Of a stretch of 64,000 nucleotides of DNA, positions 44,676 to 60,094 are shown in pieces. The translations under genes and the position numbers were made by a program. This DNA is from Acidocella sp. (GTDB lineage Bacteria > Pseudomonadota > Alphaproteobacteria > Acetobacterales > Acetobacteraceae): positions 1-64,000 of the forward strand of contig JAMFRU010000001.1 of assembly GCA_026224875.1 (NCBI GenBank), written 5' to 3'. The stretch's first letter is position 1. Each line of letters begins with the position of its first letter. The notes under the pieces were generated by a model. That model was given only the letters and a program-made list of their open reading frames with translations, was not told where the DNA came from and ran no database searches.

Positions 44676-44744
44676 GGCTTTTACCTTAGCTGGGAAGAGT
44701 ATGAACCTTTGTAAGCCTCGACTCTTAAACAAACACTAAGATGC

Positions 44745-45473
44745 TCAGCCAAGCACGGTTGACGCACCCCCCGCCCGCCAGCGCAGCCGTGAAACATCCA
44801 GCAGGACCTCGCCGCTTAGAGACTGCATAACCTCTCCTCCCGCCGGTTGCGCATAATAGGTCTCCGCGTCCGGCCAGCGGTGGCTCAGCGGCCAGGTCCA
44901 GGCGCCATGCCGCCAATACGTCCAAAACAGCCGTCGCGCCAAAGCCGTATCCGGCCGTAGTACCTCCCGCCGGGCCCAGCACGGCCCCATTTGCCGCGCC
45001 AGCCGCCAGGTGAGGGGGGACACATAATTAGAAAACCAGAGGGTAAAACCCAATTGCGCCTGTAACGCCGCAACGGCACGATATACCTGTACATGCTCGG
45101 GGTGCCCGTACTCGCCCCAGGGGTTATGCGTGTAAACATCAGTGCATCCCGCCAACACTGGCGTAAGTGCAGCCAATAATGCCGTGTAATTTGCGTCATA
45201 GCGCGCCTGACCCGCAGCATCCGCAATTTGTATCCCGGTGGTGCAAAACGCAGCACTTGCCCAATCCACGAGCTTGCGCGTTCCGCTTTCCACCAGAGCA
45301 AGGTTCACCAGCCCCGGCAGTTTCAGCCTCGCCACCGCCCGCGCCCGCGCGGCGGATTTTTTGCCGCCGTCAAGCTGATCGCCAAAACAGAACACGACCC
45401 GGTCCGCCTTGGACAAAACCGCGCTCAGCCACAACGCCTCGTCATCAGGATGTGCGACTACGACCGCTTTCAC
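44745..45473 (-). CDS. PIG-L family (LmbE-like) deacetylase
   Basis: This 242-aa zinc-dependent de-N-acetylase has the metal-binding AHPDDEA at residues 7-13 and HPEH at 124-127 (in NPWGEYGHPEHVQV), the complete H-x-D-D...H-x-x-H set of GlcNAc-PI deacetylases, MshB and LmbE. Its ATG overlaps the stop of a GT4 gene by 4 bp, so the two products probably act in sequence: addition of an N-acetylhexosamine and then deacetylation. In this neighbourhood the acceptor is probably an (inositol-phospho)sphingolipid, but this is inference. Confidence 0.85.
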   Translation of the reverse strand: MKAVVVAHPDDEALWLSAVLSKADRVVFCFGDQLDGGKKSAARARAVARLKLPGLVNLALVESGTRKLVDWASAAFCTTGIQIADAAGQARYDANYTALLAALTPVLAGCTDVYTHNPWGEYGHPEHVQVYRAVAALQAQLGFTLWFSNYVSPLTWRLARQMGPCWARREVLRPDTALARRLFWTYWRHGAWTWPLSHRWPDAETYYAQPAGGEVMQSLSGEVLLDVSRLRWRAGGASTVLG

Positions 45474-46597
45474 GCCAGCAGCCCATCATAGATCTCCTCA
45501 AGCACCGCGGTCTGCCGGACAATATCGAATTTCTGCTCAACCCGCAGCCTGGCCGCCTCGCCCATGCGCCGGCGCAATTCCGCATCCGCCAGCAATTCGC
45601 CCATGCGCGCCGCCAACGCCGCAGTGTCGCGCTCCGGCACCAGAAATCCTGTTTCGCCGTTCACGATTGTTTCGCGAATGCCGCCCATATCCGAGCCCAC
45701 GGACGGCACACCGGTCGCTGCGGCTTCCAGCACCACCATGCCAAGCCCCTCAACCCGGCCCGAGGGACTGCGCACGCTGGGCAGAGCCAGCAAAGCCGCC
45801 CGGCGCATCCAGGACAGCACTTCAACATGAGGCCGTGCGCCCAAAAACGCCACCTGCGCTGCCACGCCGCACTCCCGCGCCTGCTTCTCCAGCCGTTTGC
45901 GCAAAGCCCCGTCGCCGATAATGACGAGCCGGACCTTTGGGTGCTTTGACACCAGTGCGGCGAAGGCGCGGATCAAAAATTCCGTCCCTTTCATCTCCAC
46001 CAGCCGCGCGACATGCAGGATCACCGGCTCTTCTTCCCCCGGTGCGCGGGGCGAGATGAGCCCGCAATCCACGCCCATATAGTGAACTTGCGTACGCTCC
46101 GGCGGAAAGCCCTGTGCCAGCAGCCGTTCGCGGATGAATTCCGAAACGCACAGGAACAAATTGCCCCGCCGCATCAGCCCCCGCCGCAACAGCGGATACC
46201 AGGCCCAGGCCGGTGATGCGAAGAACCCCGCGGTTGAGAGCGTGGCGTCAAACCCATGAAAAGTGGTGACCAGCGGTACGCCTAACCTCTCGGCCAGCGG
46301 CAGCGCATAAACACCCTCGATGCCGAAATGTGCATGGATCAGCGCCGGGCGCCGTCCTGCCAGCAGCCGCTCATAAGGGGCGATGCTGCGGCTCGCCATC
46401 TGCAAGCCGGCCATCGGCAAAGCCATGCGTGGGTACAGATCCTCAAACGCCAGCGCGTCCACGCCCGGCGGCGCCGCGCCCTGGCGCAGCCGGCCCAAAA
46501 AAAGCGGGTGATATTTGCTGTAATGCCTGGCCTGCTCAGTGATGAAAACTTCCGAAATTCTGAACAAATTATGGCGGAACACCGCCACTTCCGGCAT
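45470..46597 (-). CDS. Glycosyltransferase family 4
   Basis: This 375-aa GT-B retaining glycosyltransferase has an N-terminal acceptor domain (PEVAVFRHNLFRISEVFITEQA; HAHFGIEGVYALPLAERLG), the donor-site VILHVARLVEMKGTEFLIRAF and the E-x7-E motif EGLGMVVLE near residue 290. ATG 46597 begins at the homologous MPEVAVF; the frame upstream to 46732 lies within the end of the spt gene. It is encoded 4 bp after spt and overlaps the PIG-L gene, which places it firmly in the sphingolipid operon. Probably it glycosylates a sphingolipid head group, perhaps with GlcNAc given the deacetylase that follows. Confidence 0.85.
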   Translation of the reverse strand: MPEVAVFRHNLFRISEVFITEQARHYSKYHPLFLGRLRQGAAPPGVDALAFEDLYPRMALPMAGLQMASRSIAPYERLLAGRRPALIHAHFGIEGVYALPLAERLGVPLVTTFHGFDATLSTAGFFASPAWAWYPLLRRGLMRRGNLFLCVSEFIRERLLAQGFPPERTQVHYMGVDCGLISPRAPGEEEPVILHVARLVEMKGTEFLIRAFAALVSKHPKVRLVIIGDGALRKRLEKQARECGVAAQVAFLGARPHVEVLSWMRRAALLALPSVRSPSGRVEGLGMVVLEAAATGVPSVGSDMGGIRETIVNGETGFLVPERDTAALAARMGELLADAELRRRMGEAARLRVEQKFDIVRQTAVLEEIYDGLLA

Positions 46598-46601
46598 GTT
46601 T

Positions 46602-47843
46602 TTATTTGGCGCCGGCAAAGTCCGGCTCACCCCAGGCAGGCTGGCTTGGCCGGGGAATAAGCCCCAGCTCCCGCCCGGCATCCGCGAACAACGCAATGGC
46701 ATGGTCCAATTGGGCCGGGCTATGCGCCGCACTCACGCTGGAGCGCAGCAGCGCCAGGCCCTTTGGCGTTGCCGGCGGCAGGCTCACATTGGTGTACAGC
46801 CCCATTTCCAGCAGCCGTGCCCAGAAGGCGAATGCCGTATCCGGGTCCGGCATGATGGTGGAGACCACCGGGCTCGGCTCCGGCCCCACGGTAAAGCCAA
46901 GCCGCGCCAGACCATCATACAACCGCCGCGAATTGGCATTGAGCTGATGGCGCAACCCAGGCCGCAGCCGCAATTGGTGCAAAGCCTCCAGCGTGGCCGC
47001 AATCACCCCCGGCGGCAGCGAGGCGGTGAACATATACGGCCGGCTGACAACGCGGAGGATATCAAACCCGTCTATATCCGCCACGCAGAACCCGCCGACA
47101 CCGCCCAGGCTTTTGGAGAACGTGCCGACGATGAAATCGACATCCGCCTCAACCCCGGCCGCTTCAGCCAGGCCGCGCCCGGTAGCACCCAGCACACCCA
47201 GGGAATGCGCCTCATCCACGACCAGATAGGCACCATATTCGCGCTTCACCGCGGCAAATTCGCGCAACGGGGCGGTATCGCCCAGCATCGAGTAAATCCC
47301 CTCGACGACGATGATCTTATCCCCCGGCACGTCCTTCAGCCGGCGTAGCCGGTTGGCCAGATCATCCGGGCTGTTGTGCCTGAACCGCGTCACCTGGGCG
47401 TGGCCCAGGCGCGCGCCATCGTAAATGCTGGCATGCGAATCGGCATCGAGGATCAAATGATCGTCCTTGCCCGCCAGCGCGGATAAAATGCCGAGATTGG
47501 CCTGATAGCCGGTGGAATACACCATGCCATGCTTGCGGCCGTAGAAATCCGCCAGCGCCTGCTCCAGCCCGCGATGCCCCTGATAGCTGCCATTGGCGAT
47601 GCGCGAACCCGTGGTGCCGGTGCCGGAAAGCTCCGTCGCCTCCATGGATTTGGCAATCACCGAGGGATCGTATGTAAGCCCCAGATAATTGTTCGTGCCC
47701 AGCAGCAATGTCGTGCGCCCGGAAATGATCGCCTCGGTCGGCGACAGCACAGCCTCGAACGCGACGTTGAAGGGGTTGGTCCCGGCCTCTTCCAGCCGGG
47801 CGTATTGCGCCGCGAGGGCCGCGTACTTGGCGAGTAATGTCAT
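46602..47843 (-). CDS. spt: Serine palmitoyltransferase (alpha-oxoamine synthase)
   Basis: This 413-aa PLP enzyme of the AOS family should condense L-serine with an acyl thioester to 3-ketodihydrosphingosine, the first step of sphingolipid synthesis. It shows GTNNYLGLTYDPSV (residue 49 on), the cofactor-stacking H137 in ADSHASIYDG, D210 and H213 in VVDEAHSLGVLG, and the PLP lysine K244 in GTFSKSLGGVGG. KBL, BioF and ALAS share this fold, but the adjacent dedicated acyl carrier protein, 4 bp upstream, and the ceramide genes nearby favour serine palmitoyltransferase. ATG 47843 follows the ACP stop; a longer frame to 47912 would overlap the ACP gene. It is expected to be cytoplasmic. Confidence 0.87.
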   Translation of the reverse strand: MTLLAKYAALAAQYARLEEAGTNPFNVAFEAVLSPTEAIISGRTTLLLGTNNYLGLTYDPSVIAKSMEATELSGTGTTGSRIANGSYQGHRGLEQALADFYGRKHGMVYSTGYQANLGILSALAGKDDHLILDADSHASIYDGARLGHAQVTRFRHNSPDDLANRLRRLKDVPGDKIIVVEGIYSMLGDTAPLREFAAVKREYGAYLVVDEAHSLGVLGATGRGLAEAAGVEADVDFIVGTFSKSLGGVGGFCVADIDGFDILRVVSRPYMFTASLPPGVIAATLEALHQLRLRPGLRHQLNANSRRLYDGLARLGFTVGPEPSPVVSTIMPDPDTAFAFWARLLEMGLYTNVSLPPATPKGLALLRSSVSAAHSPAQLDHAIALFADAGRELGLIPRPSQPAWGEPDFAGAK

Positions 47844-47847
47844 GTGG

Positions 47848-48099
47848 TTATACGTGCGCCTTGAGGTCGCGCAGCACTGTGAGCAAATCGCCCAAAGTTT
47901 CGATCTCCGCAATCTTGTCGAGCGGCACGGAAAGGTCCAGCCGGTCTTCGATCTCCATCACGAAATCCATCACCGCCACCGAGTCCAACCCGAGATCATC
48001 GACGATATGCGTCTGCTCGGTCAACGCCACGGGCCGTGGCAGCGCGTTGCGCAGCGTGTCGAAAATGATCTCACGGATATCCGCGTCCGAATCAGTCAT
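47848..48099 (-). CDS. Acyl carrier protein dedicated to sphingolipid synthesis
   Basis: This 83-aa four-helix carrier protein has the phosphopantetheine site S40 in DDLGLDSVAVMDFVMEIED. It is the first gene of the ACP-spt-GT4-PIG-L operon. In Caulobacter-type sphingolipid loci an ACP and an acyl-ACP synthetase supply the acyl thioester to serine palmitoyltransferase; the fatty acyl-AMP ligase at 54456 could be the loading enzyme here. It is distinct from the fatty-acid-synthesis AcpP in helix II (DFVMEIEDRLDLSVPLDK) but otherwise canonical. Confidence 0.9.
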   Translation of the reverse strand: MTDSDADIREIIFDTLRNALPRPVALTEQTHIVDDLGLDSVAVMDFVMEIEDRLDLSVPLDKIAEIETLGDLLTVLRDLKAHV

Positions 48100-48335
48100 C
48101 TTTAATGGTCAGCCTTCTGGTTTCCAATTGTGCAGCCTAGCATGCAGATAGCGGCGCGCGCGAGATGACAATTTGATAACATACGCTATACTTGGCAAGG
48201 TAAATTAATTAAAGGCGGCCATGCCTTTGCTGCCATGCGTTGCTATAACACCGTCGCGGCAGGGGCATTGTGGTATGCAGCCGGCCGGAAACAGGCCGTT
48301 ATACGAGCGAGCCGCGGAGTGGATGGCTTAACGCA

Positions 48336-49424
48336 TTGATTATACCTGAGTATCTGGCGCGTGAAATCGGCAGACCGTTCGCCGCCATCCTTGGCGTGCT
48401 TTGCGCGCTGTTCGGCGGCTACAGCATTTCCAGCAGCCTGGCCGACCCCGCCAACGGTCTGCTGCCGGCCGCCATCATCTTCGAACTAGCCGGGCTCAAA
48501 CTGCTGATTTCCCAGGATGTCCTCATCCCCGTGGCACTTTTTTTCGCCGTGCTCCTCAGCTTCAGCCGGCTGCATGCCGACCATGAGATTACGGCTATGG
48601 AAGCCCTGGGTGCCCGGCCGATGCAGGTGGCACGCGCGGTGCTGGGCTTTGCCACGGTCACAGCCCTGGCCGTGGGCGTAATGGCGATGCTGGCCCGCCC
48701 CTGGGCCTATCGCACCTCGCACGACATCACCTGGATGGGGGCCACCAAGGTAGATTTAAACGCCATGCAGGCCGGCACGTTCTACGCCAGCCAGGACGGC
48801 GACCGGGTCATCTACCTCAACCACCGTACCGCGCGCGGCGGGTTGGCCCAGGATGTATTCGTGCGGCGCAATATCGGCGGCCATACCGAGGTGATTTTCG
48901 CCCAATCAGCCACACCGCTGCCAAGCCTAGACGCCACTGGCCAGCGCGAGGTGTATCTCTCTAACGCGCATATTTATGAAATCGACCCCGCCGACCCGCA
49001 TAAGGATAATCTGCTGAGTGCCGCGGGGATGAAGATAGACCCAGCCGCCGTGCCTGGGAGTGCACCCGGCTACAGCCCTGTCGCCGCCAGCAACCGGCTG
49101 CTCGCCACCTCAACCGCGCCCCGGGATGTCGCGGAACTCCAGTGGCGGCTTTCCACCCCGGTTTCCACTTTTTTACTGGCGCTGATGGGCATACCGCTCA
49201 GCCGCACTCAGTCGCGGCAGGGCCGCTATGCCCGCTTCGGCCCGGCCATCCTGATTTACGCCGGCTATTACCTGCTGTGTACCACGGCGCGCACCTGGGT
49301 GGAGCATGGCGATATCGGCCCGCTGCCCGGCATATGGTGGGCGCCGATGCTACTGGCCGTGTTGTTGTTTGCGGCCCTTAATGAGACCCGCATCCGCCGC
49401 CGCCTGACTGGCCGCGTGGCATGA
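48336..49424 (+). CDS. lptF: LptF-like permease (YjgP/YjgQ family)
   Basis: This protein of about 362 aa has the YjgP/YjgQ layout: two N-terminal helices (ILGVLCALFGGYSISSSLA), the coupling segment ITAMEALGARPMQVARAVLGF that touches the ABC ATPase LptB, a periplasmic beta-jellyroll region (about 110-260), and three C-terminal helices (STFLLALMGIPLSRTQS on). I prefer the TTG start at 48336 (LIIPEYLAREIGRPF), as family members begin that way; GTG 48270 gives an unrelated extension. It is followed 10 bp later by lptG. Divergent from the ACP-spt operon and upstream of inositol-lipid genes, it may move a sphingolipid rather than, or as well as, LPS. Confidence 0.82.
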   Translation: MIIPEYLAREIGRPFAAILGVLCALFGGYSISSSLADPANGLLPAAIIFELAGLKLLISQDVLIPVALFFAVLLSFSRLHADHEITAMEALGARPMQVARAVLGFATVTALAVGVMAMLARPWAYRTSHDITWMGATKVDLNAMQAGTFYASQDGDRVIYLNHRTARGGLAQDVFVRRNIGGHTEVIFAQSATPLPSLDATGQREVYLSNAHIYEIDPADPHKDNLLSAAGMKIDPAAVPGSAPGYSPVAASNRLLATSTAPRDVAELQWRLSTPVSTFLLALMGIPLSRTQSRQGRYARFGPAILIYAGYYLLCTTARTWVEHGDIGPLPGIWWAPMLLAVLLFAALNETRIRRRLTGRVA

Positions 49425-49434
49425 GCGGGGCGGC

Positions 49435-50520
49435 ATGAATATTGTCGACCGCTACATCGGCGTGCTCACCTTGCGCATATTTCTCCTCGCCATGGCCGGG
49501 CTGACGGCATTGTTCAGCCTGCTGGATTTCGTGCAGCAGCTCTCGCTGGTCGGGCAGGGCAGTTACGATGCGCGCGATGCGCTGATCTACACCGCCTTCA
49601 CCGCCCCCGCGCGGGTGCTGCAGCTAGCGCCTGTGGGGATGCTGCTGGCCAGCCTGCTGGCGCTGGGAGGGCTGGCCCGTAATGCCGAGCTTACCGCCTG
49701 GCGCAGCCTCGGCGTCTCCGAGGCGCGCATCATCGGCGCGCTGGTGAAACTCTCGCTGCCGATTATTTTCGCTTTGTTCCTGATCGCGCAATATGTGGTG
49801 CCCACGGCGCAGCAGCTGGCCCAGCGCCAGCAGGAGGCGGCTTTGGTCGAGACTGCCACGACGATGCATTACGGCGGTTTCTGGGTGGCGCATGACCAGC
49901 AATACCTCAACGTGCAGCAGTTCGGTTACGACCGCGCGCCGCAGGATATCGATATCTACAGCTTCGCGCCCGACGGCAGCATGACGGATTACAAACATGC
50001 CGACAGCGCCACAGTAAACCCAGATGGCAGCTGGCAGTTGCAGAATGTGCTGGAAAAGCGGGTGCAGGGTACGCAGTTCGTCACCACCTGGCAGCCCAGC
50101 GTGATATGGCAATCCTTCGTCACGCCGCGGCATATGCAGTTATTGCAGCTGCCGGCCTCGACGATGCCGCCGGTCGAATTGTTCCGCTATATCCATGAGC
50201 AGAAGCGCAACGACCAGCGGGCGATCAGTGACGAGCTGGTGTTCTGGAACATGGTCAGCATCCCGCTTTCGCTGCTGGCGCTGGTGATCGTGGCGGCCCC
50301 TTTCGCCTTCGGTGCGCAGCGGATGCAAAGTGCCGGGCGGCAGGTGCTGGTGGGGGCTCTGCTGGGCATCGGGTTTGAGCTGACCCAGCAACTGGTGCTC
50401 ACGTTCGGCGCGCGGTCCAGCGTGGCACCGGCGCTCGTGGCGCTGGCACCCACACTGCTGCTGGGCGGGGCCGGGATCTATGTGTTGCAGCGGGCGCATA
50501 ACGCTCTGCGCTCAGGCTAG
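49435..50520 (+). CDS. lptG: LptG-like permease (YjgP/YjgQ family)
   Basis: This 361-aa partner of the LptF-like protein has the starting helix DRYIGVLTLRIFLLAMAGLTALFSLLDFVQQL, the coupling helix ELTAWRSLGVSEARIIGALVK, a periplasmic domain (about 130-255), and three C-terminal helices with IPLSLLALVIVAAPFAFGAQRMQS. The gene order LptF-LptG is conserved in LPS export systems, where both bind the LptB2 ATPase and pass lipid to LptC. No lptB, lptC, lptA or lptD lies here, so ATPase and bridge would be shared or encoded elsewhere. Confidence 0.85.
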   Translation: MNIVDRYIGVLTLRIFLLAMAGLTALFSLLDFVQQLSLVGQGSYDARDALIYTAFTAPARVLQLAPVGMLLASLLALGGLARNAELTAWRSLGVSEARIIGALVKLSLPIIFALFLIAQYVVPTAQQLAQRQQEAALVETATTMHYGGFWVAHDQQYLNVQQFGYDRAPQDIDIYSFAPDGSMTDYKHADSATVNPDGSWQLQNVLEKRVQGTQFVTTWQPSVIWQSFVTPRHMQLLQLPASTMPPVELFRYIHEQKRNDQRAISDELVFWNMVSIPLSLLALVIVAAPFAFGAQRMQSAGRQVLVGALLGIGFELTQQLVLTFGARSSVAPALVALAPTLLLGGAGIYVLQRAHNALRSG

Positions 50521-50526
50521 CGGCGC

Positions 50527-51381
50527 TCAGGCTTTGAACGAAAAAGCCTCGTAACGGTGGCGCTGGTCCGCGAGCAAAGCGCCCAGAACGGCGTTGAGGA
50601 TTAAAAATTCCAGCAGGAAAAAGAGCAGCGGGGCGCCTGCCACCGCACAGAGAAAAATACCTATCGTGCGGGCATTGGAGGAAAGCAAAGCCCAGCGCCG
50701 GATGGCCGGGGCGAAGGTCGCGCAATAGCGCGCGCGCAAAGTGTCAGCCGTTTCCGGGTGTGCGGCCATGGCAGCCGCCAGTTTTTGATGGAAGGGCGCC
50801 GCCTCGCCGCCGATGAGTAGCTGCGCGCGCGTATAAATATTATTCAGCCAGGCGGCCGTGCCTTTCCGGGCGGGCGCATCAAGGTCGGGCAGTGCCGAGG
50901 GTGTGCGGCCGAGGCCATAGACATTGTAATATTGCCGTTGCAGCTCAAAGGCGGCGGATTGCAAAGCATGGCTCAACCCCGCGGCGATAACGAGATACCA
51001 GACCCAGCCGCCATGGATTGTAGCGAGGGTGAGGGCCAGCCCGACATAGACCGCGGTGAAGGTCACATAGTCGCAGATGCCGTCGATGACCTTGCCGAAT
51101 TCGGAGTAGGTGTTCGTGAGGCGGGCGAGCTGTCCGTCGGCGCCATCCAGTACATGCCAGGCGAACATAAGGGCGAAGCCGAGAAACACGCACCATGTAT
51201 GCGGATAGAAATGATAAGCGATGCCGGCGGCAATGCCGCAGCCCATACCGGCAAGCGAAACCTGATTAGGAATGATTTTCGCCCGCGCGAAGTAAGGAAC
51301 GATCCAAGCAGAGAGCGGATGAATAACATAAAGATTGCTAGGCGTCTCAATCTCAACCGCCCGCCGCACCGGCTCACTCAT
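50527..51381 (-). CDS. CDP-alcohol phosphotransferase (inositol-phospholipid/sphingolipid head-group transferase candidate)
   Basis: This 284-aa integral membrane enzyme has the complete CDP-alcohol phosphotransferase motif D79-x2-D82-G83-x2-A86-R87-x8-G96-x3-D100-x3-D104 and at least five further hydrophobic segments. It transfers a phospho-alcohol from a CDP-activated donor to an alcohol acceptor, with two metal ions. It is the last gene of a minus-strand set with inositol-1-phosphate synthase and a nucleotidyltransferase. The simplest reading is that it uses CDP-inositol made by those genes and a lipid alcohol such as ceramide. The alternative, inositol-1-P plus CDP-diacylglycerol (PIP synthase), is possible, but it would leave the nucleotidyltransferase unexplained. 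Confidence 0.85.
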   Translation of the reverse strand: MSEPVRRAVEIETPSNLYVIHPLSAWIVPYFARAKIIPNQVSLAGMGCGIAAGIAYHFYPHTWCVFLGFALMFAWHVLDGADGQLARLTNTYSEFGKVIDGICDYVTFTAVYVGLALTLATIHGGWVWYLVIAAGLSHALQSAAFELQRQYYNVYGLGRTPSALPDLDAPARKGTAAWLNNIYTRAQLLIGGEAAPFHQKLAAAMAAHPETADTLRARYCATFAPAIRRWALLSSNARTIGIFLCAVAGAPLLFFLLEFLILNAVLGALLADQRHRYEAFSFKA

Positions 51382-51408
51382 GAAGCTTTGTCCTAAAATG
51401 ATAAAGTT

Positions 51409-51451
51409 TTTTTGGGTACCTTTTTGTTCACAAAAAGGTACTGCTTTACTT
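51409..51451 (+). repeat. Dispersed terminator-like repeat, copy (d)
   Basis: AAAGTTTTTTTGGGTACC, then TTTTTGTTCACAAAAAGGTA and CTGCTTTA: a diverged member of the family at 9222, 13783 and 31734. GTACCTTTTTG/CAAAAAGGTAC form its stem. It sits between the nucleotidyltransferase stop and the phosphotransferase start, both on the minus strand, so it may reduce read-through within this operon. Confidence 0.6.
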
Positions 51452-52165
51452 CAACTGCCCCGTTTCAAGCAGCGTCTCCGCCTTGGTAAACGCCACCGGA
51501 TCATCAACATCCACCCACATCCGGTCGCCGATATCAAACACCCGCGCCTTGCCCCATTCCGCCAGCATATTCATGGCGCCGGAGATACTGTCATCGCCAC
51601 GGAGCTGGCTTTCGATCAGGGCATCGAACATCACCGGGGTGCAGAGAAACACACCAGTATCAAAGCAATTAAAATCGCGGATGATTTTCCCGATATGCTT
51701 GAGCAATGTGCCGTCGCATTTTACCCGGGTCACATCCTCGGGGTCGTTGAGCGGGTTCTCGATGTTGAAATCGACCGCGAGTGTCACCGTATCGGGCTCG
51801 GCTTGGGTGGCGATGAGGGCACGGAAAATCTCGGGATCGACGAGATGGTCGCACATTGTGAGCAGAAACGGCTCATCGAGATATTGCTTGGCCGCGAGCA
51901 CGGATACGCCGTTGGCACGGTCCCAGGCGCGGTTGTAGATGCGGGTGATATGCACACCAGACCGCGTGGAAAGCTCGCCGAGGCGGGCCTGCAATTCATC
52001 GGAATGGTAGCCGGTGACGATTAAAAACTCATCCGCCCCACCGGCGCGGGCATTGGCGATGACGCGTTCGATGAGCGGCACGCCCTTGATGGGAATAAGG
52101 GGTTTAAGCTCCCCTTTCTCCCGCAGGCGCGTACCCTGGCCCGCCGCGACGATCAGGCATTTCAT
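51446..52165 (-). CDS. NTP-transferase-family nucleotidyltransferase (candidate CTP:inositol-1-phosphate cytidylyltransferase)
   Basis: This 239-aa protein has the nucleotidyltransferase signature AAGQGTRLREKGELKPLIPI (residues 7-26), metal-binding LTMCDHLVD near 105 and a C-terminal WVDVDDPVAFTKAE. The overall form resembles the cytidylyltransferase domain of archaeal and thermophile enzymes that make CDP-inositol from inositol-1-phosphate (IPCT). Its ATG overlaps the end of the inositol-1-phosphate synthase gene by 4 bp, which strongly implies a shared pathway. A phosphocholine or sugar-1-phosphate nucleotidyltransferase is the alternative; the substrate is inferred from context only. Confidence 0.75.
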   Translation of the reverse strand: MKCLIVAAGQGTRLREKGELKPLIPIKGVPLIERVIANARAGGADEFLIVTGYHSDELQARLGELSTRSGVHITRIYNRAWDRANGVSVLAAKQYLDEPFLLTMCDHLVDPEIFRALIATQAEPDTVTLAVDFNIENPLNDPEDVTRVKCDGTLLKHIGKIIRDFNCFDTGVFLCTPVMFDALIESQLRGDDSISGAMNMLAEWGKARVFDIGDRMWVDVDDPVAFTKAETLLETGQLK

Positions 52166-53295
52166 TCGGCGGCGGCGACCTTTGCCTGGACGCAGCCGGC
52201 GATGAAGTCTTCGGTCATGTCATACGCCACATCGTCAGTGTACTGCGCGGGTGGATGCTTGCAGAAATACGCGCTGGGGCCGGCCAGCACGCCGCCGATG
52301 CCGTTCTCAAGTGCTATCTTACAACAGCGGATCATGTCGATGACCACGCCGGCGGAGTTCGGGCTGTCCTGCACCGAGAGGCGCAGTTCCAGATCCATCG
52401 GCACGTCGCCGAACATCTGGCCTTCCATGCGGATGAAGCAGATCTTGTTGTCATTCTGCCAGGGCACGTAGTCGCTCGGGCCGATATGGATGTTCTCGCT
52501 GTCGAGCCGCGTTTTGGTCACGGACTGCACGGCTTCGGTCTTGGACTTCTTCTTGGAGGCCAGGCGGTCCTGGTTCTTCATGTTGAGGAAATCGGTATTG
52601 CCGCCGGTGTTCAGCTGGTAGGTGCGCAGCAGCTTGATGCCGCGCTTGGCGAACAGATCCGTCAGTACACGATGCGTAATGGTCGCACCCAGCTGGGATT
52701 TGATGTCATCGCCGATGATCGGCAGGTTGCGCGCGGCAAAACGGTCGGCAAAGGCTTTGTCCGAGGCGATGAACACCGGCATGTTGTTGATGAAGCCGAT
52801 ATGGGCTTCCAGCGCGCATTCGGCATAGAAGCGCGCGGCTTTTTCGGAGCCGACCGGCATGTAGTTGAGCAGCACATCGGCGCCGGTGCGCTTCAGCTCG
52901 GCGACAACTTCGGCCTTGCTCAGCTCGTGCGCGTCGGATTTAATAAAGGTGCGGTCGTCGGCATAATTTTCCATATGCTCGGAAATACCGTCCAGCACCG
53001 GGCCCATGAGCACGGTCACGCCGGCATCGGGGATTTCGGCCTGGAAGATCTTGGTACAGTTCGGCTTGGCGAAAATCGCCTGGTGAACATCGATGCCGAC
53101 CTTACGCACATCAACGTCAAACGCGGCGACCACATCGATGTCGCACGGCCGGTAGCCGCCGATTTCCGTGTGCATCAGCCCGATAACATCCTCGCGGCAG
53201 CGCTGTGGGGTATAATAATGGATGCCCTGAATGAGAGAGCTTGCACAATTGCCAACCCCGGCGATCGCGATACGAATGCCGTTCTTCTTAACCAT
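52162..53295 (-). CDS. ino1: Inositol-3-phosphate (myo-inositol-1-phosphate) synthase
   Basis: This 377-aa NAD-dependent isomerase converts glucose-6-phosphate to myo-inositol phosphate. It is the short prokaryotic/actinobacterial form: GVGNCASSLIQGIHYY (NAD-binding, near residue 12), VVAAFDVDVRKVG, NYMPVGSEKAARFYAECALEA, the conserved GDDIKSQLGATITHR, and LLRTYQLNTGGNTDFLNM. ATG 53295 has GAGG at 6 nt. The enzyme is unusual in alphaproteobacteria and supplies the inositol used by the two genes downstream on the same strand. Overlap with the nucleotidyltransferase gene indicates translational coupling. Confidence 0.95.
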   Translation of the reverse strand: MVKKNGIRIAIAGVGNCASSLIQGIHYYTPQRCREDVIGLMHTEIGGYRPCDIDVVAAFDVDVRKVGIDVHQAIFAKPNCTKIFQAEIPDAGVTVLMGPVLDGISEHMENYADDRTFIKSDAHELSKAEVVAELKRTGADVLLNYMPVGSEKAARFYAECALEAHIGFINNMPVFIASDKAFADRFAARNLPIIGDDIKSQLGATITHRVLTDLFAKRGIKLLRTYQLNTGGNTDFLNMKNQDRLASKKKSKTEAVQSVTKTRLDSENIHIGPSDYVPWQNDNKICFIRMEGQMFGDVPMDLELRLSVQDSPNSAGVVIDMIRCCKIALENGIGGVLAGPSAYFCKHPPAQYTDDVAYDMTEDFIAGCVQAKVAAAE

Positions 53296-53408
53296 GTGAA
53301 CCTCGCCTGCCTGAAAACGCCGGAAAATCACGGATATTACCGATTTGTGACCTTACAGCCAGGGTAAACGAGCCGCAAGTATTACGGCGGGAGGCAGCGT
53401 TGCAGGCG

Positions 53409-54362
53409 TTACAGTTGCGGTAAGGCCTTGCAAACCAGTGCGCTATACAGCTGATTTTGGCAATTTGCGCGTATATAGGCGGGGTCGATGACCGCGATGT
53501 GCCGCTTGGCGCGTACCGAGGCATACCAGTGTACGATGCGAGTCTCGGGCCGCAGCACGCGGGAAAGCGGCGCGCGGCTGGGGCGGAACCAATGCTCCGA
53601 GATTTCCGGGGCCAAAGGGTAAAAGGCGGCGGGCTCATGGATGGTGAGTTCGGCCGTGGAGAACCCGCCAACGAGGGTTTGCAGCAGATGCGGACCCAGA
53701 GCGTAGGGCTGCGTCTGCCGTGCCGGCGGCAGTTGCACCATGGCTGCCAAATAGGCGGCAAACAGCGCGGCGCCAGGTGCCGCACCCATAATGGCGTTGT
53801 TCACACCCTTGAAATACCAGCTTTCTACGGCGCGAAAACCGCGCCAGCCGCCCGGCGTCAGGCGCAGGATTTTACGCAGCACATCCAGCGCCAGATGCCT
53901 TGCCCAGACCACGGGCGAGCGCGATGTGCGCACCCAATCCGGCCAGACGATGTGCTCCGTGCCGACAAATTGCGGCGCCGCCAGCAATGGGCGCAGCGAG
54001 GCCACCGTTATGGTATCGAGGTCGAGATAGATACCGCCTTGCACGTAGAGAATCGCCGCGCGCAGCACGTCGGCCCGCTGCACCGGGCTGGTCAGCCCGG
54101 CATAAAGTGCGGCGAGCTTTGTACCCAATCCCAGCGGTGCCCCGGCCTGCTCAAGGAAGAGTTTCGCGTCCACATGTTCCAGCCGCACGCCAGGTGCCGC
54201 GCGCAAAGCGGCAACGCCAAGTGTATCCTGCAACTCATCGGTATGATGCAGCACAACTTCGTCCATCTGCGCCTGCGCTGCCGCGGAAAGCACGGCAAAC
54301 ACATAGGCCCAGGGCAGCGTCGGGCCGATCCAGCAAAAATGTACGCGCGCGGGAATTGGCAT
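53409..54362 (-). CDS. GT32-like glycosyltransferase (DxD, Och1/Sur1-like)
   Basis: This 317-aa GT-A enzyme matches the Gly_transf_sug DXD group. It begins IPARVHFCWIGP and carries SPVQRADVLRAAILYVQGGIYLDLDTITV with D114-x-D116, the arrangement seen in GT32 enzymes such as fungal Och1 and Sur1/Csg1 (the inositol-phosphoryl-ceramide mannosyltransferase). ATG 54362 starts directly at the conserved domain; the frame is open far upstream to 54866, but only as a shadow of the divergent ligase gene. It is transcribed toward the inositol genes (114-bp gap). Sugar and acceptor are inferred from context. Confidence 0.75.
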   Translation of the reverse strand: MPIPARVHFCWIGPTLPWAYVFAVLSAAAQAQMDEVVLHHTDELQDTLGVAALRAAPGVRLEHVDAKLFLEQAGAPLGLGTKLAALYAGLTSPVQRADVLRAAILYVQGGIYLDLDTITVASLRPLLAAPQFVGTEHIVWPDWVRTSRSPVVWARHLALDVLRKILRLTPGGWRGFRAVESWYFKGVNNAIMGAAPGAALFAAYLAAMVQLPPARQTQPYALGPHLLQTLVGGFSTAELTIHEPAAFYPLAPEISEHWFRPSRAPLSRVLRPETRIVHWYASVRAKRHIAVIDPAYIRANCQNQLYSALVCKALPQL

Positions 54363-54455
54363 GTGCGCAGATAGGCCGCGCGCCAATCCGCCGTCAAATG
54401 CAGGCCTGTCACGCCATTGCCATGGCGGGGTGGTTCTGTTAGCCGGGAAAATACT

Positions 54456-56213
54456 GTGCCGAGCCAAGACATTTCTACTCTCGCGGAGCCGACCCCGACC
54501 AGGACACCGGGCCGCGCGATCTCCTACGCCGCTTTCGGTACCATTGCCGAGGCGCTGGATTATGCCGCCCAGGGCGTGACGGGTTTCAACATCTACTCCG
54601 GCAAAGGCAGGCTCGTCGAAGTTTTGCCGTACAGCCTGCTGCGCGAACAGGCTGTTGCGCTCGCCCGCCGTATGCTGGGCGCCGGTTTGCAACCCGGCGA
54701 GCGCGTCGGGCTGGTAGCCGAGAGCGACGGCGATTTTTTGCGTGCTTTCTGCGCCTGCCAATATGCGGGACTCGTACCCGCCCCCTTGCCGCTGCCGGCG
54801 GCGTTCGGCGGGCGGGAGGGTTATATCGCCCATTTGCGCCGCATGGTGGAAACCGCCCAGGCGCATGCGTTGTTTGGCCCCGACATGCTGGAAAGCTGGA
54901 TCGCGGAAGCCGCCGAGGGGCTGAATTTGCGCCTCTCCGGCAGCTACAAACAGCTGGAAGCCGCACCCGAAGCCGCACTACCGCCGCAAAATCCGGATGC
55001 GCTGGCCTATCTGCAATTCTCCTCCGGCAGCACGCGCTTCCCGCTCGGCGTGGCTGTCACGCAGCGCGCCTTCCTGACCAACGCGCATTACATGGCGCGC
55101 GACGGCCTTGGCGTTACGGAAGCCGACCGCTGCACCAGCTGGCTGCCCTTCTACCACGACATGGGGCTGGTCGGGTTTTTCCTGATGCCGCTCGCCTGCC
55201 AGCTCTCGGTCGATATTCTGCCCACACGCGAATTTGCCCGCCGGCCTTTATTGTGGCTGGAGCTGATCAGCCGCAACCGCGGCACCGTCTCCTTCAGCCC
55301 CTCCTTCGGCTATGAATTATCGCTCCGCCGCGCCGAGACCGCCTCCACCGAGGGCCTCGACCTTTCCAGCTGGCGCCGCGCCGGCATCGGTGGAGACATG
55401 GTGCGCCCCGCCGTACTCACCCGCTTCGCCGCGCGTTTTGCCGAACGCGGCTTTGGCGAGGAGGTTTTCGTGCCCTGCTACGGCATGGCCGAGGCGACAC
55501 TGGCGCTGAGTTTTACGCCGCCAGGGCAGGGGGCGAAGCAGGACGTCATCGATGGTGTGATCCTGGAGCGCGAGCACCGCGCCGTGCCGGCCAATAAATC
55601 GAGCACACGCACACGCGGTTTTGTGCTGTGCGGCCGCATGCTGCCGCAGCACGAGGCCGAGGTACGCGGTGAAGGCGGCGAGATTTTGCCAGAGCGCCTG
55701 GTAGGCCGCATTTTCGTGCGTGGCCCCAGCCTTATGCTCGGCTATTTCGGCGCCCCGGAAGAAACCGCGCAGGTGCTCTCCGCCGATGGCTGGCTCGATA
55801 CCGGCGACCTTGGCTATTTCACCGATGGCCAGCTCGTTATCACCGGCCGCGCCAAAGACCTCATCCTCGTCAACGGCCGCAATGTCTGGCCGCAGGATTT
55901 GGAATGGGCGGCGGAGGCGGATATGGCCTCCCTGCGCAGCGGCGATGTCGCGGTGTTCTCGGTCGATAACGGCGTTGCGGAAGAAGTTGTGGTGCTCGTG
56001 CAATGCCGCACCACCGATGCCCTCGCGCGAGAAAAACTAATCCACGACAGCACCAAATTCTTCCGTGGCCGGCATGGATTGGAGACGCGGGTTGTTCTGG
56101 TGCCGCCGCGCAGCCTGCCGCAGACATCCTCTGGCAAACTCAGCCGCTCGCGCGCGCGCGCGATGTATCTGGCGAATGAATATCCCACACAGGTTATCGC
56201 CGGGGCAGCGTGA
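54456..56213 (+). CDS. Fatty acyl-AMP ligase / acyl-ACP synthetase
   Basis: This adenylate-forming enzyme of about 585 aa belongs to the FAAL-like group. It has the P-loop equivalent LQFSSGSTRFPLGVAVTQRA, SWLPFYHDMGLVGFFLMPL (a FAAL hallmark), PCYGMAEATLALSF, WLDTGDLGYFTDGQLVITGRAKDLILVNGRNVWPQDLE and the C-terminal lysine region LPQTSSGKLSRSRAR. FAALs pass the acyl-adenylate to a carrier protein rather than CoA, which suits the ACP at 47848. GTG 54456 has GGGA at 7 nt; ATG 54417 lacks a site. Its stop overlaps the epimerase gene (GTGA). This pair matches the ligase-reductase arrangement of bacterial ceramide loci. Confidence 0.87.
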   Translation: MPSQDISTLAEPTPTRTPGRAISYAAFGTIAEALDYAAQGVTGFNIYSGKGRLVEVLPYSLLREQAVALARRMLGAGLQPGERVGLVAESDGDFLRAFCACQYAGLVPAPLPLPAAFGGREGYIAHLRRMVETAQAHALFGPDMLESWIAEAAEGLNLRLSGSYKQLEAAPEAALPPQNPDALAYLQFSSGSTRFPLGVAVTQRAFLTNAHYMARDGLGVTEADRCTSWLPFYHDMGLVGFFLMPLACQLSVDILPTREFARRPLLWLELISRNRGTVSFSPSFGYELSLRRAETASTEGLDLSSWRRAGIGGDMVRPAVLTRFAARFAERGFGEEVFVPCYGMAEATLALSFTPPGQGAKQDVIDGVILEREHRAVPANKSSTRTRGFVLCGRMLPQHEAEVRGEGGEILPERLVGRIFVRGPSLMLGYFGAPEETAQVLSADGWLDTGDLGYFTDGQLVITGRAKDLILVNGRNVWPQDLEWAAEADMASLRSGDVAVFSVDNGVAEEVVVLVQCRTTDALAREKLIHDSTKFFRGRHGLETRVVLVPPRSLPQTSSGKLSRSRARAMYLANEYPTQVIAGAA

Positions 56214-57151
56214 ACCGGCGGGTTGTTGCGGTAACCGGTGCGACGGGTTTTTTAGGGCTGCATCTGGTGGCGGCTCTTTCCCGCGCGGGCGCAAAAATCC
56301 GCATTCTGGCGCGGCGTGATCCTGCCCATGAATTCTGGTCCGGCATCGAATACGAAACAATTTTTGGCGATCTCGCGGACGAAGCAGCACTGGCCCGGCT
56401 GGTGCATGGTGCTGATGCCGTGGTGCATGCCGCCGGGCTGATCAAGGCACAAAACCGCGCGGCATTTTTGCGCGTCAACCGCGATGGTGCGGCGGCCGTG
56501 GCGAAGGCCGCGCGGTTGCATGCGCCGGATGCAAGGTTCGTCGCGGTTTCAACACTTGCAGCGCGCATACCGGAAATTTCAGACTACGCATTTTCAAAAC
56601 ACGCGGGGGAAGAAGCGGTTCGCGCCGTTTATACGGGAACGGAATCACAGCTCGTCACCATCCGCCCGCCGGTTTTGTACGGGCCGTGGGATAAAGCAAC
56701 ATTATCAGTCTTCCAGACAGCGGCCCTGCCCATCGTGCCGGTGCTGAGCCGTGGGCGCGTAACCATCCTGCACGTAACGGACGCAGCTACAGCGCTGGCG
56801 CACGTGGCGCTGGGCGCCGGCGAGAGCGGATTATTCGCACTTCCCGGCGGCGATTATACACTGGCAGAGGTGGCAACAGAGGCCATGCGGGCGCAGGGCC
56901 GAAAAGCAAATTTGCTTCATGTTCCAGGGGTTTTACTCCGCGCCGCGGGCGCAGCCTCCGGCCTATGGGGGCGCTTACGCGGCGCCGCACCGGTGTTTTC
57001 CGCAGGCAAGGCAAGAGAAATGCTGTATCCGGATTGGACGGTGCATACCGATGAGGCGCTGCCGGCATCGGTGTATCACCCCGCCATAGGTCTGGAAGAG
57101 GGTTTCGCCAGCACCGTAGCCTGGTACCGCGCCCACGGCTGGTTACGCTAA
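56210..57151 (+). CDS. NAD(P)-dependent epimerase/dehydratase-fold reductase (ceramide-reductase candidate)
   Basis: This 313-aa extended-SDR protein has the Rossmann motif VTGATGFLG (residues 8-16), HAAGLIKA near 73, and the catalytic S114, Y126 and K130 (DYAFSKH). It starts with GTG overlapping the ligase stop. In Caulobacter-type loci an epimerase-like protein beside the acyl-ACP synthetase reduces the 3-keto group of oxidised ceramide (CerR); the same position and fold here suggest that role. A sugar epimerase function is the alternative, but no sugar-nucleotide genes adjoin it. Confidence 0.78.
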   Translation: MNRRVVAVTGATGFLGLHLVAALSRAGAKIRILARRDPAHEFWSGIEYETIFGDLADEAALARLVHGADAVVHAAGLIKAQNRAAFLRVNRDGAAAVAKAARLHAPDARFVAVSTLAARIPEISDYAFSKHAGEEAVRAVYTGTESQLVTIRPPVLYGPWDKATLSVFQTAALPIVPVLSRGRVTILHVTDAATALAHVALGAGESGLFALPGGDYTLAEVATEAMRAQGRKANLLHVPGVLLRAAGAASGLWGRLRGAAPVFSAGKAREMLYPDWTVHTDEALPASVYHPAIGLEEGFASTVAWYRAHGWLR

Positions 57152-57362
57152 CGCCAGGAGCTAATCGGCCAAGCCGTGGTCCGGCTTTTTCGCAGTGGTG
57201 CAGTATCTTCACTTCTATTAACGCAACCCCTGCGGTCGGCGCAGCAGGAATGCGGCCAACGTTGTCGTTACCGGCTTGGTCGAAGTGCTCAACAAGCTGA
57301 CATTCGTCCGGGTAAGCAACCTTGAGGTGGCTTAAAATTCGGATCTCAGATAGCCTAGCTCA

Positions 57363-58793
57363 ATGGTCAGTTGGGAAATTGAGGCTGTCGATCTGATTAA
57401 CCGGGGGCTCTTCGAGATCACTGATCCAGGCCCCCTGCACGCACCAATTCGTGGGTTCGTGCTAAGCCGCAATGATGACCTTGCATTGATTCTTGAAACC
57501 AACGCGACGCCAGACGCCAAAACGGATATAGTTCAGCCCCCGACAGGTACCGTACGTTTTAACAAAGACTTAGTTAAACTTGCAGAAATCGGCGGCAATG
57601 AGGCTACGCTAACTGGAATACAGTCTTTTAATGTCACAATATCCCACGGTCATTCTCAGCAAAGCGCCCTGAGAGAGTGCGCACGTATTCACGAGCTGAC
57701 GGTAACGCTCGATGATCCAGGAAAGGCGGCCTACACAATTGAATGGTTGGAAAACCTGCCGCTTAGTCCCTTCATTTGGCCGGATTCTATTACGACTATA
57801 ACAGAAACGAGCGTTACTTGCAGTATCGCGCTCTTGAATGGTGGTTTAACGCTTTCCAATTCGAGTAGCGGGCATAATTCTAGCCAAAACGCCGCTAAGC
57901 TGACCGTGGCCGGCCAGACGCTATTTGTTTGCGCCCAGAGTACTCAGGGCTCTGATGCAATCAAGCGGGGAAGTATCGTCTATATTGGAACTCCTGACGA
58001 TTTAATCCGAAAGAAAATCCGTAATGCGCTATCCTTCGCACTCGGCTTCTATCTCGTTGAACTGGGTCACACGCTTTATGATCAAGACTGGCACATCGTC
58101 GCCGCTACTTCGCGGAGTGCCTATAGTCTTGCCAAGAGAACTTTCGATCCCTCGCCAATGCCACTGGCCCATCTCAGCAGCAGGAGCTTCCAGCACGATC
58201 TTGGTCACACTAAGCTTACGCAAATGGTAGATGCCCTTGTGGCCAACTACGACCAGCTTGATCTGGGTAATCTTAGTTGGGCATATTGGCATGCTGGCAC
58301 TGCAACGGTACATATTGCACCAGCACATTTTGGCGCTGCCATAGAGGCGTTACAGGAGGCATACTGCAAGAGCCATCCCAACATAGGCAAAACAAAAATA
58401 CTGCCAACTGCGCAATGGAAAGGACTAAGAGAAACTATTAATGGAGTCATTGAAGCGGCCCTAATTAACGAAGACAACAAAGGCGCGTTGAAGGAAAAGC
58501 TTCAGGATATTAACAGACCCCCGCAGCGCGTAATTTTAAAATCCGTTTTAGAAGCAATGGGTATAGAGTTAGGTGCTGCTGAAAATGAAGCGTGGAAGCG
58601 CCGTAATGATGCGGCTCATGGTACCCCTATCCCCGAAGGCGAGGAACTCGCCGCCATTAGGGACATGAAGCTTCTGCGTGGTCTGTTTAACCGCATGCTG
58701 TTACGCATGACCAACGCCGCCGACAACTATGTGGACTATGTCACACCAGGCCATGCAATCCGCTATCTGCAGGATCCGGTGCCATCCACTTAA
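57363..58793 (+). CDS. ApeA-like HEPN-domain protein (probable anti-phage abortive-infection RNase)
   Basis: This 476-aa protein resembles the ApeA family: a long beta-rich N-terminal domain (about residues 20-300) followed by a helical C-terminal HEPN domain. The HEPN RNase motif R-x4-H is visible as R414...H419 in WKRRNDAAHGTPI. ApeA proteins protect cells by degrading RNA on phage infection. G+C is visibly lower than in the flanking genes, codon use differs, and it stands alone between sphingolipid genes without its own operon partners, all signs of horizontal acquisition. No clear ribosome site precedes ATG 57363. Assignment rests on domain architecture seen by eye. Confidence 0.6.
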   Translation: MVSWEIEAVDLINRGLFEITDPGPLHAPIRGFVLSRNDDLALILETNATPDAKTDIVQPPTGTVRFNKDLVKLAEIGGNEATLTGIQSFNVTISHGHSQQSALRECARIHELTVTLDDPGKAAYTIEWLENLPLSPFIWPDSITTITETSVTCSIALLNGGLTLSNSSSGHNSSQNAAKLTVAGQTLFVCAQSTQGSDAIKRGSIVYIGTPDDLIRKKIRNALSFALGFYLVELGHTLYDQDWHIVAATSRSAYSLAKRTFDPSPMPLAHLSSRSFQHDLGHTKLTQMVDALVANYDQLDLGNLSWAYWHAGTATVHIAPAHFGAAIEALQEAYCKSHPNIGKTKILPTAQWKGLRETINGVIEAALINEDNKGALKEKLQDINRPPQRVILKSVLEAMGIELGAAENEAWKRRNDAAHGTPIPEGEELAAIRDMKLLRGLFNRMLLRMTNAADNYVDYVTPGHAIRYLQDPVPST

Positions 58794-58832
58794 AAAATTG
58801 CCGTAATTACGGGCCGACCTACTAGCGCTCCC

Positions 58833-59963
58833 CTAAATCGCCTTCTCGTAAATCCGGTACGTCTTATAAGCCTTCGCCCCCAGGCTCTCATTCATCCGCC
58901 GCATCGGCAAATTATCCTCCAGAATCCACGATAATTCGATATGCGTGAACCCCATCTTGAGCGCCTCTTTCCGCACCATGTCGATCATCAGAAACGGCAT
59001 CAAACTACCGATCATATCATGCGCCGCCGCACGCCGTACCCCCATCAGCGGCACACGCGCGGTTTTCACCCCGCTCACCTTCAGCCGCCACAGCAATTTA
59101 GCCCAACCGAACGGCAGCATCTTGCCCTTCAAATCGCGTATCGCCTCATTCAAATTCGGCAGGCCGATCATGAATCCCACCGGCTCGCCATTGCGTTCAA
59201 TCAGGCTCGTCAGCCGCGGGTTCAGCAACGGCTTCAGCGCTTTTGCCAGATAATCCGCCTCGGTTTCCGTCCACGGCACAAACCCCCAATTACCGGACCA
59301 GGCATCGTTGAAAATATCCGTCACAGTGCGGATTTCAGCATTGATCTTCTTCAAATCCAGCTGCCGCACGGTCAGGTCTTTGGGCAGCTCGCGGTCCAGC
59401 AGCCGCCGCACGGATTTGGGCAGCTCCATGGTAATATCATAGAGATAGGCATAAACATCCTTCTCCTTCACCAGCCCATATTCCTCCAGCCGCGCCGCGA
59501 TATAGGGCTTGTCATGTCCCATCATCAGCACCGGCGGCGTGTCGAAACCATCGATCAACAGCCCGGTTTCCTCGTTGATATTGAGGTTGAACGGGCCCTC
59601 CATCCGAATCTTGCCCCGGGCCCGCAGCCACTCTGCTGCCGTATCCAAAAGCACCTTAAAAATCGCAGGATCATCCTCAGCCGCAATCATCCCGAACTGC
59701 CCCGGCGCATCCGGGCGAATGGTCAGCGCCAGCTGGTCGATCTGCGCGCTGATACGCCCCACATCCCGGCCATCCCGCACCGCCAGCCAGAATTGCACCT
59801 CGGCATGGCCAAAGAACGGGTTTTTATCCGTCAGCCCTTCCTCGCGCTCCATATGCAGCGGAGCGATGTAATACGGGTCGTCGGCATGCAGCCGCTCGGG
59901 GAGCAGAATAAAGCGTTTCAGCAGCGCCTTGCCTGCAACCGGGGTGATAATAATATCGCTCAA
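58833..59963 (-). CDS. GNAT-fold acyltransferase, bacterial ceramide-synthase (bCerS) candidate
   Basis: This 376-aa protein starts at TTG 59963, seven nt after a consensus AGGAGG. It contains PDDPYYIAPLHMEREEGL-like ADDPYYIAPLHMEREEGL near residue 25, WLAVRDGRDVGRISAQID (GNAT beta-strand region), EGPFNLNINEETGLLIDGFDTPPVLMMGH near 125, and a C-terminal second GNAT-like half (EPVGFMIGLPNLNEAIRDLKG; HIELSWILEDNLPMRRMNESLGA). Proteins of this length and pattern lie beside serine palmitoyltransferase in alphaproteobacteria, and a GNAT-family protein there was described as the N-acyltransferase of bacterial ceramide synthesis. The role here is by analogy; only the acyltransferase fold is directly supported. 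The ApeA-like gene separates it from the ligase/reductase pair. Confidence 0.68.
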   Translation of the reverse strand: MSDIIITPVAGKALLKRFILLPERLHADDPYYIAPLHMEREEGLTDKNPFFGHAEVQFWLAVRDGRDVGRISAQIDQLALTIRPDAPGQFGMIAAEDDPAIFKVLLDTAAEWLRARGKIRMEGPFNLNINEETGLLIDGFDTPPVLMMGHDKPYIAARLEEYGLVKEKDVYAYLYDITMELPKSVRRLLDRELPKDLTVRQLDLKKINAEIRTVTDIFNDAWSGNWGFVPWTETEADYLAKALKPLLNPRLTSLIERNGEPVGFMIGLPNLNEAIRDLKGKMLPFGWAKLLWRLKVSGVKTARVPLMGVRRAAAHDMIGSLMPFLMIDMVRKEALKMGFTHIELSWILEDNLPMRRMNESLGAKAYKTYRIYEKAI

Positions 59964-60094
59964 AATAGGGCCTCCTGCGCCGATTCGGATAGCAGCCGAG
60001 CGTTGGGCTGGCAAACACGCCCCCCCTTCCTGCGCGCTTCGCTGCGACGCAAAAAACGCTTGCCCGGCGCGGCAATCAGCGTTTGATTAACCCC

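Follow-up and report, generated by a model that had tools for sequence, protein, structure and literature searches.

Which lipid is made by a set of genes in which enzymes of ceramide synthesis stand among enzymes of inositol metabolism, sugar-modifying enzymes and components of outer membrane transport? The question is raised by a block of genes at 41536 to 59963 of a 64,000-nucleotide stretch of Acidocella sp. DNA (contig JAMFRU010000001.1, positions 1 to 64,000, forward strand; hereafter the window), whose source contig (C114) is part of a 3.87-Mb genome in 145 contigs. The best explanation of our results is that the product is probably inositol-phosphoceramide, likely bearing sugars, by a route predicted from sequence, fold and genome context, and that the block is most likely a bacterial counterpart of the inositol sphingolipid systems of plants and fungi. 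An earlier note on this DNA had claimed that phosphoinositol is placed on ceramide, and both homology and comparative genomics lend that claim good support.

The substrates, order of steps and transport that we infer are as follows. Serine palmitoyltransferase (SPT), an acyl carrier protein (ACP), an acyl-AMP ligase, a CerR-like reductase and a tandem-GNAT enzyme would produce (dihydro)ceramide. Ino1 would supply inositol-1-phosphate, from which a cytidylyltransferase would make CDP-inositol; a CDP-alcohol phosphotransferase would then move phosphoinositol onto ceramide with release of CMP, with no CDP-diacylglycerol or AUR1-type step. The head group may be modified by a GT4 enzyme with a PIG-L protein, by a GT32 enzyme and by an outer GT4, after which a MOP protein would flip the lipid and LptF2/LptG2 would carry it to the outer membrane.

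The inositol genes and their linkage to ceramide synthesis

Comparisons drew on 80 named loci, which were kept out of 138 relatives and overlap with the same-family genome set; on a same-family sample of 150 genomes, the window's genome included; and on a class sample of 385 genomes (400 requested). Alignments held the window's sequence plus 9 others (A1), 9 (A2), 45 of 81 and locus L045 (A3), 21 of 26 (A4), 17 of 29 (A5), 20 of 24 (A6) and 17 of 34 (A7); L039, from genome G132, was excluded from A1 owing to an in-frame stop.

Ino1 matches a solved inositol-3-phosphate synthase (1gr0, 1e-114). The top three solved relatives of the cytidylyltransferase profile are inositol-1-phosphate cytidylyltransferases (2xme, 4mnd and 4jd0; E 3.5e-26 to 3e-23), the next following at 4.4e-11, and residues R13, K21 and D106 are kept in 10/10 aligned sequences. 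Against the curated bifunctional di-myo-inositol phosphate (DIP) model it scores 107.2 bits, under the cut-off of 580. We propose that it may be a CTP:inositol-1-phosphate cytidylyltransferase, with the substrate suggested by genomic linkage to Ino1. The two genes lie on the same strand with a gap of at most 75 nucleotides (nt) at all 57 loci with both, and Ino1 is the immediate neighbor at 57 of the 64 cytidylyltransferase loci; five of the other seven are at a contig end, and the remaining two, L073 and L089, are considered below. Both the inositol profile match and the adjacency count for an inositol-phosphoceramide product.

The CDP-alcohol phosphotransferase carries the signature DxxDGxxAR...GxxxDxxxD, with all eight residues present in 47/47 aligned sequences. 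Its predicted structure (predicted local distance difference test score, pLDDT, 92) is nearest to AF2299, the sole match below E 0.001, and then to phosphatidylinositol-phosphate (PIP) synthases. Curated models did not recover it as a PIP synthase (NF045883, 45.9 bits with a cut-off of 170; the BT_1523 model, 20 with a cut-off of 350). We propose that it may act as a CDP-inositol:ceramide phosphoinositol transferase. A PAP2/AUR1-type protein was sought among 20 open reading frames (ORFs) of the window, with no PAP2 match; the remaining genome was not searched. In an Emcibacter metagenome-assembled genome (MAG), a 452-amino-acid (aa) ORF adjoining the CDP-alcohol gene (L116:8630-9985, plus strand) appears by eye to join a nucleotidyltransferase domain and a second domain of CDP-alcohol type in one protein.

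The CDP-alcohol enzyme has a strong homologue in 11/150 same-family genomes, including the window's (E ≤3.4e-44, followed by a gap to 5.9e-11). At the other 10 same-family loci, parts of the block are common and rearranged. The order GNAT, reductase, ligase, GT32, Ino1, cytidylyltransferase, CDP-alcohol enzyme, LptG, LptF, ACP, SPT, GT4, PIG-L, flippase, GT4 is mostly kept in Acidocella, Nitrospirillum and Elstera, within contig reach. When the linkage of spt to the inositol genes was checked in relatives, as had been suggested earlier, both were on one locus in these three genera and in some MAGs labelled Gammaproteobacteria; otherwise SPT was usually found elsewhere in the genome (45/49), as in Gluconacetobacter, Emcibacter and Kordiimonadaceae, where it lies off the inositol locus. 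Loci L085 and L124 have the order Ino1, cytidylyltransferase, ACP, SPT, GNAT, CDP-alcohol enzyme. Chance clustering was rejected, as the same genes are together again in other genera and families. Among the 36 loci of at least 20 kb, 9 contain neither a ceramide gene nor an Lpt gene, and 4 of these 9 have Ino1 and the cytidylyltransferase. With these 9/36 excluded, the remaining 27 long loci all carry Ino1, the cytidylyltransferase, LptF and LptG, and 13 of them carry SPT. An Ino1 of at least 71% identity occurs in 9 same-family genomes, each of which has the CDP-alcohol enzyme, and an Ino1 of 51 to 56% identity in 20, of which 19 are without the enzyme (the exception is G049). Distance correlations among the cluster proteins (0.70 to 0.93) were set aside as evidence because genome divergence alone can produce such values. 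A near-complete alphaproteobacterial block is present in a MAG labelled Geothrix (L076), which is probably a misbinned contig or else a transfer. L045 (G029:C1:1549700-1569600, in a 1.9-Mb genome) has a CDP-alcohol homologue with LptF, LptG and GT4, and no cytidylyltransferase nearby.

SPT was present in 10/11 same-family genomes with the CDP-alcohol enzyme versus 38/139 without it (Fisher 5e-5, relatedness ignored). In the class sample, 3 genomes have the CDP-alcohol enzyme (one being the window's), all 3 with SPT, out of 49 with SPT in total. Among the examined named loci, 73/78 have SPT, whether at the locus itself or at another place in the genome. This count is the sum of 26 loci with SPT over >40% of its length, 45 with a match at E ≤1e-60 elsewhere (SPT being sought elsewhere for 49 of the 54 loci lacking it, and 4 having none) and 2 (L118 and L123, from G086 and G037) counted with SPT from the same-family sample; L132 (G132) was counted without SPT from that sample, and L109 and L135 are outside the count. 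The 45 matches include partial ones in G150, G154, G166 and G177 and a weak one in G198 (40%). SPT co-occurrence, the confinement of the closer Ino1 group to genomes with the CDP-alcohol enzyme, the adjacency in L085 and L124 and the presence of a second LptF2/LptG2 pair were also counted in favor of inositol-phosphoceramide.

Gene content and limits of the block

The genes of the recurrent block are as follows.

41536..42783 (+), GT4 glycosyltransferase, left edge of the block; Pfam Glycos_transf_1; at 34/80 relatives' loci
42808..44259 (+), MOP/Wzx-type flippase; Polysacc_synt_3, MOP flippase family; at 23/80 relatives' loci
44745..45473 (-), PIG-L family deacetylase; PF02585, 29.4 bits, marginally above the cut-off of 28.2
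45470..46597 (-), GT4 glycosyltransferase, coupled to PIG-L; PF00534
46602..47843 (-), SPT; NCBIfam NF047599, 656.8 bits, cut-off 500
47848..48099 (-), ACP, 83 aa; NCBIfam ACP models, under their cut-offs; GLDSV motif
48270..49424 (+), LptF2 permease; TIGR04407, 263.3 bits, cut-off 230
49435..50520 (+), LptG2 permease; TIGR04408, 294.4 bits, cut-off 240
50527..51381 (-), CDP-alcohol phosphotransferase; PF01066
51446..52165 (-), cytidylyltransferase (nucleoside triphosphate, NTP, transferase); nearest solved relatives are inositol-1-phosphate cytidylyltransferases
52162..53295 (-), Ino1, myo-inositol-phosphate synthase; PF01658; PDB 1gr0, 1e-114
53409..54362 (-), GT32-type glycosyltransferase with DXD motif; PF04488
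54417..56213 (+), fatty acyl-AMP ligase, start uncertain; NF006624, 843.5 bits, cut-off 600
56210..57151 (+), SDR epimerase-type reductase, CerR-like by its place in the block; PF01370
58833..59963 (-), tandem-GNAT acyltransferase; predicted model with Foldseek matches, SPT co-occurrence

The gene inventory given earlier for 44745-59963 was borne out. Profiles support the family of the PIG-L, GT4, SPT, LptF, LptG, CDP-OH transferase, NTP transferase, Ino1, GT32, AMP-binding ligase, SDR epimerase and ACP genes; for the minus-strand block genes, start and stop codons were verified; and the motifs of SPT (TFSKS), GT32 (DLD), PIG-L (AHPDD and HPEH) and ACP (GLDSV) are intact. Stop and start codons overlap at 52162-52165 (Ino1/cytidylyltransferase), 56210-56213 (ligase/reductase) and 45470-45473 (GT4/PIG-L), a pattern as in co-translated genes. 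The recurrent block reaches further left than was earlier noted, through the flippase and outer GT4 to 41536.

Two neighboring genes were rejected as members. A 476-aa ORF at 57363-58793 (+) is at 0/80 relatives' loci, has a G+C content at third codon positions of 0.50 versus 0.63 to 0.83 for the surrounding block genes and has no match in Pfam, NCBIfam or PADLOC; it seems to have been inserted from a foreign source, separating the reductase and GNAT genes. The phosphoenolpyruvate carboxylase gene at 60083-62884 is at 1/80. No RNA family reached the gathering threshold in 41000-62000. Between the flippase and PIG-L genes lies a 154-aa Ala/Ser-rich low-complexity ORF (44271-44732, minus strand), which may be no gene.

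Ceramide synthesis genes

Both SPT and the acyl-AMP ligase score above the curated NCBIfam cut-offs, and the best solved relative of SPT is also an SPT (PDB 2x8u, 4.5e-136), with the pyridoxal phosphate-lysine motif present. The GNAT candidate of the window has no Pfam match of its own, and its sequence profile found no solved relative; Acetyltransf_1 is matched by 12/22 aligned members of its family, and the top Foldseek matches of its predicted model (pLDDT 81) are tandem GNATs. A homologue is present in 48/48 SPT-positive and 14/102 SPT-negative same-family genomes. This distribution fits the expectation for a ceramide synthase (bCerS), which we propose the candidate may be. The family would be wider than this function, as the homologues in the 14 SPT-negative genomes are 31 to 43% identical. 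No curated CerR model matched the SDR reductase, whose putative CerR-like role is suggested by its family and its place in the block.

Proposed head group sugars and export

In mycothiol and glycosylphosphatidylinositol (GPI) synthesis, a GT4 enzyme adds N-acetylglucosamine (GlcNAc) to inositol, after which a PIG-L protein removes the acetyl group; in bacillithiol synthesis the same families are paired on malate. The GT4 and PIG-L genes of the block are on the same strand and within 300 nt at all 22 loci with both. The nearest solved relatives of this GT4 are group-1 transferases, GlcNAc-malate synthase and phosphatidylinositol mannosyltransferases (we take 2jjm and 3mbo to be BshA, and 3c48 and 3c4q to be MshA); those of PIG-L are MshB alone, a GlcNAc-inositol deacetylase, with a weak match (E ~1e-4 by profile). 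A glucosaminyl-inositol product is suggested because the two families act on inositol in mycothiol and GPI synthesis, and it is a lead only because bacillithiol pairs them on malate. GT32 is present at 24/80 loci, with relatives 55 to 73% identical across the full length; its solved matches comprise one GT32 protein alone (E 2.5e-4), a weak match that is uninformative for substrate. The earlier proposal that the lipid carries further sugars is thus plausible from the constant GT4/PIG-L adjacency and the recurrence of GT32, with acceptor, donor and order all conjectural. By analogy, we tentatively suggest a ceramide-based version of the GPI or glycosyl inositol phosphorylceramide (GIPC) core, a possibility that we consider less likely than not: GT4 would add an N-acetylhexosamine to the inositol of inositol-phosphoceramide, PIG-L would remove the acetyl group to leave glucosaminyl-inositol-phosphoceramide, further sugars would come from GT32 and the outer GT4, and the flippase and LptF2/LptG2 would bring it to the surface.

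LptF2/LptG2 are the second such pair in the genome, the other being on C48. Their identity to the C48 pair is 23 to 24% (LptF2, 24% over 238 aa) versus 45 to 50% to the cluster copies of relatives (LptF2, 46 to 50%), and they are present at 48/80 loci. The available part of PMC11324152 names LptC2/F2/G2 and a flippase of Caulobacter as proposed but untested exporters of phosphosphingolipids.

Alternative explanations

Several observations weigh against an inositol-phosphoceramide product. The active-site residues of the CDP-alcohol enzyme cannot separate inositol from glycerate, and phosphoglycerate is what CpgD of Caulobacter, which shares 24% identity with an inositol enzyme, uses according to the available text of PMC12275187. 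L073 and L089 carry GT32 in Ino1's place, neither Ino1 nor the cytidylyltransferase was seen at 16/80 loci, and 26/80 lack any ceramide or Lpt gene in the vicinity. The Fisher tests ignore relatedness. No close SPT was found in G156, G183, G185 or G196, the last three being assemblies of 1.2 to 2.0 Mb. A genome search of G132 (99% complete), in which the inositol module is present, found neither SPT nor a close acyl-AMP ligase, and among well-assembled same-family genomes with the module it is alone in this; its CDP-alcohol gene (C232; L039 and L132) is interrupted in frame by a TAG at residue 181 of 284, which suggests gene decay, an assembly error or lost contig also being possible. Finally, G029 has a 40% identical CDP-alcohol homologue, yet no Ino1 match in it reaches E 1e-10; some CDP-alcohol homologues may therefore use another alcohol.

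Three other explanations were considered. The inositol trio may make phosphatidylinositol on diacyl- or dialkylglycerol from CDP-inositol, with the ceramide genes adjacent only since both serve envelope lipids. CDP-inositol routes to dialkylether-glycerol inositol lipids of hyperthermophiles, as cited in the available part of PMC9246714, are a precedent, and the 43% homologue in a Rhodothermia MAG (L134), the inositol module without SPT in G132 and the Emcibacter and Kordiimonadaceae loci without ceramide genes nearby are all in keeping with it. However, SPT co-occurs with the enzyme, SPT, GNAT and the CDP-alcohol gene are neighbors in L085 and L124, and SPT is no universal background because only 38/139 same-family genomes without the CDP-alcohol enzyme have it; we consider this explanation unlikely. 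It is also conceivable that the cytidylyltransferase and CDP-alcohol enzyme move another alcohol phosphate, such as the glycerate known from Caulobacter, to ceramide or one of its derivatives, Ino1 serving another purpose. CpgD, encoded at a comparable locus, offers a close parallel in mechanism (PMC12275187, as far as available), and G029, L073 and L089 have these enzymes without an adjoining Ino1. This is made quite improbable by inositol enzymes being the best relatives and by Ino1 adjoining the cytidylyltransferase at 57/64 loci, with five of the other seven cut by a contig end. A soluble inositol solute, for example DIP, would agree with the best NCBIfam and PDB relatives of the cytidylyltransferase, which belong to the DIP pathway; the linkage to LptF/LptG (48/80 loci) and to SPT speaks against it, as does the list of structural matches to the CDP-alcohol model, in which the solved DIPPS (4mnd) comes after AF2299 and several PIP synthases, and we give it hardly any credence. 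Inositol-phosphoceramide is our preferred product.

Comparison with known systems

The mannosyl inositol phosphorylceramide (MIPC) of fungi and the GIPC of plants have an inositol-phosphate head group extended by sugars, and GPI and mycothiol share the logic of GT4 plus PIG-L. Fungal MIPC synthases, too, belong to GT32. The suggestion that the bacterial lipid is assembled by unrelated enzymes thus holds for the proposed inositol-phosphoceramide-forming step, which in Acidocella would be of CDP-alcohol type and not AUR1, and less so for GT32. If the GT4/PIG-L reading is true, the block would encode a convergent counterpart of the eukaryotic glucosaminyl-inositol-phosphate-lipid core.

Among bacteria, the ceramide-phosphoglycerate locus of Caulobacter crescentus (CC_1152-CC_1168), as described in the available parts of PMC11324152, PMC12275187 and PMC10331486, also holds ceramide genes, a cytidylyltransferase, a CDP-alcohol enzyme, a flippase and a second LptF/LptG in one region. 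By these descriptions it differs in its phosphoglycerate head group, the ceramide kinase CpgB and LptC2, whereas Ino1, GT32, GT4 and PIG-L are of the Acidocella block. No kinase match was found among the scanned ORFs of the block, and one DAGK_cat protein is encoded elsewhere in the genome (C24). The available part of PMC9246714 describes an alternative inositol-lipid cluster in Bacteroides vulgatus and Prevotella, predicted to make phosphatidylinositol (PI)-dihydroceramide, its functions unconfirmed, in which MIPS, an NTP transferase and a CDP-alcohol enzyme are shared with Acidocella by description. That cluster has a HAD hydrolase, none of which was matched among the Acidocella block genes, and ceramide and Lpt genes are linked to the trio in Acidocella. 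The same source reports PI-dihydroceramide-like fragments in Novosphingobium acidiphilum, yet no homologues of the Bacteroidetes MIPS/NTP-transferase/CDP-alcohol/HAD route; the head group, which the earlier note had thought notable, is hence not wholly unprecedented in Alphaproteobacteria. A literature search turned up neither this locus nor an alphaproteobacterial CDP-inositol route to ceramide; subscription journals were mostly uncovered, and novelty is hence unproven.

Two questions become testable: how some Alphaproteobacteria synthesize inositol sphingolipids, and how bacterial sphingolipids pass to the outer membrane. The B. thetaiotaomicron genes BT_1522/1523/1525/1526, as described in the available part of PMC9246714, also start with MIPS and make inositol-phosphoceramide, but by way of CDP-diacylglycerol, PIP and an AUR1-like synthase. 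In culturable Acidocella, Gluconacetobacter and Nitrospirillum, by comparison, we find a candidate CDP-inositol-dependent inositol-phosphoceramide synthase, of neither the AUR1 nor the PIP route and tied to a second Lpt pair.

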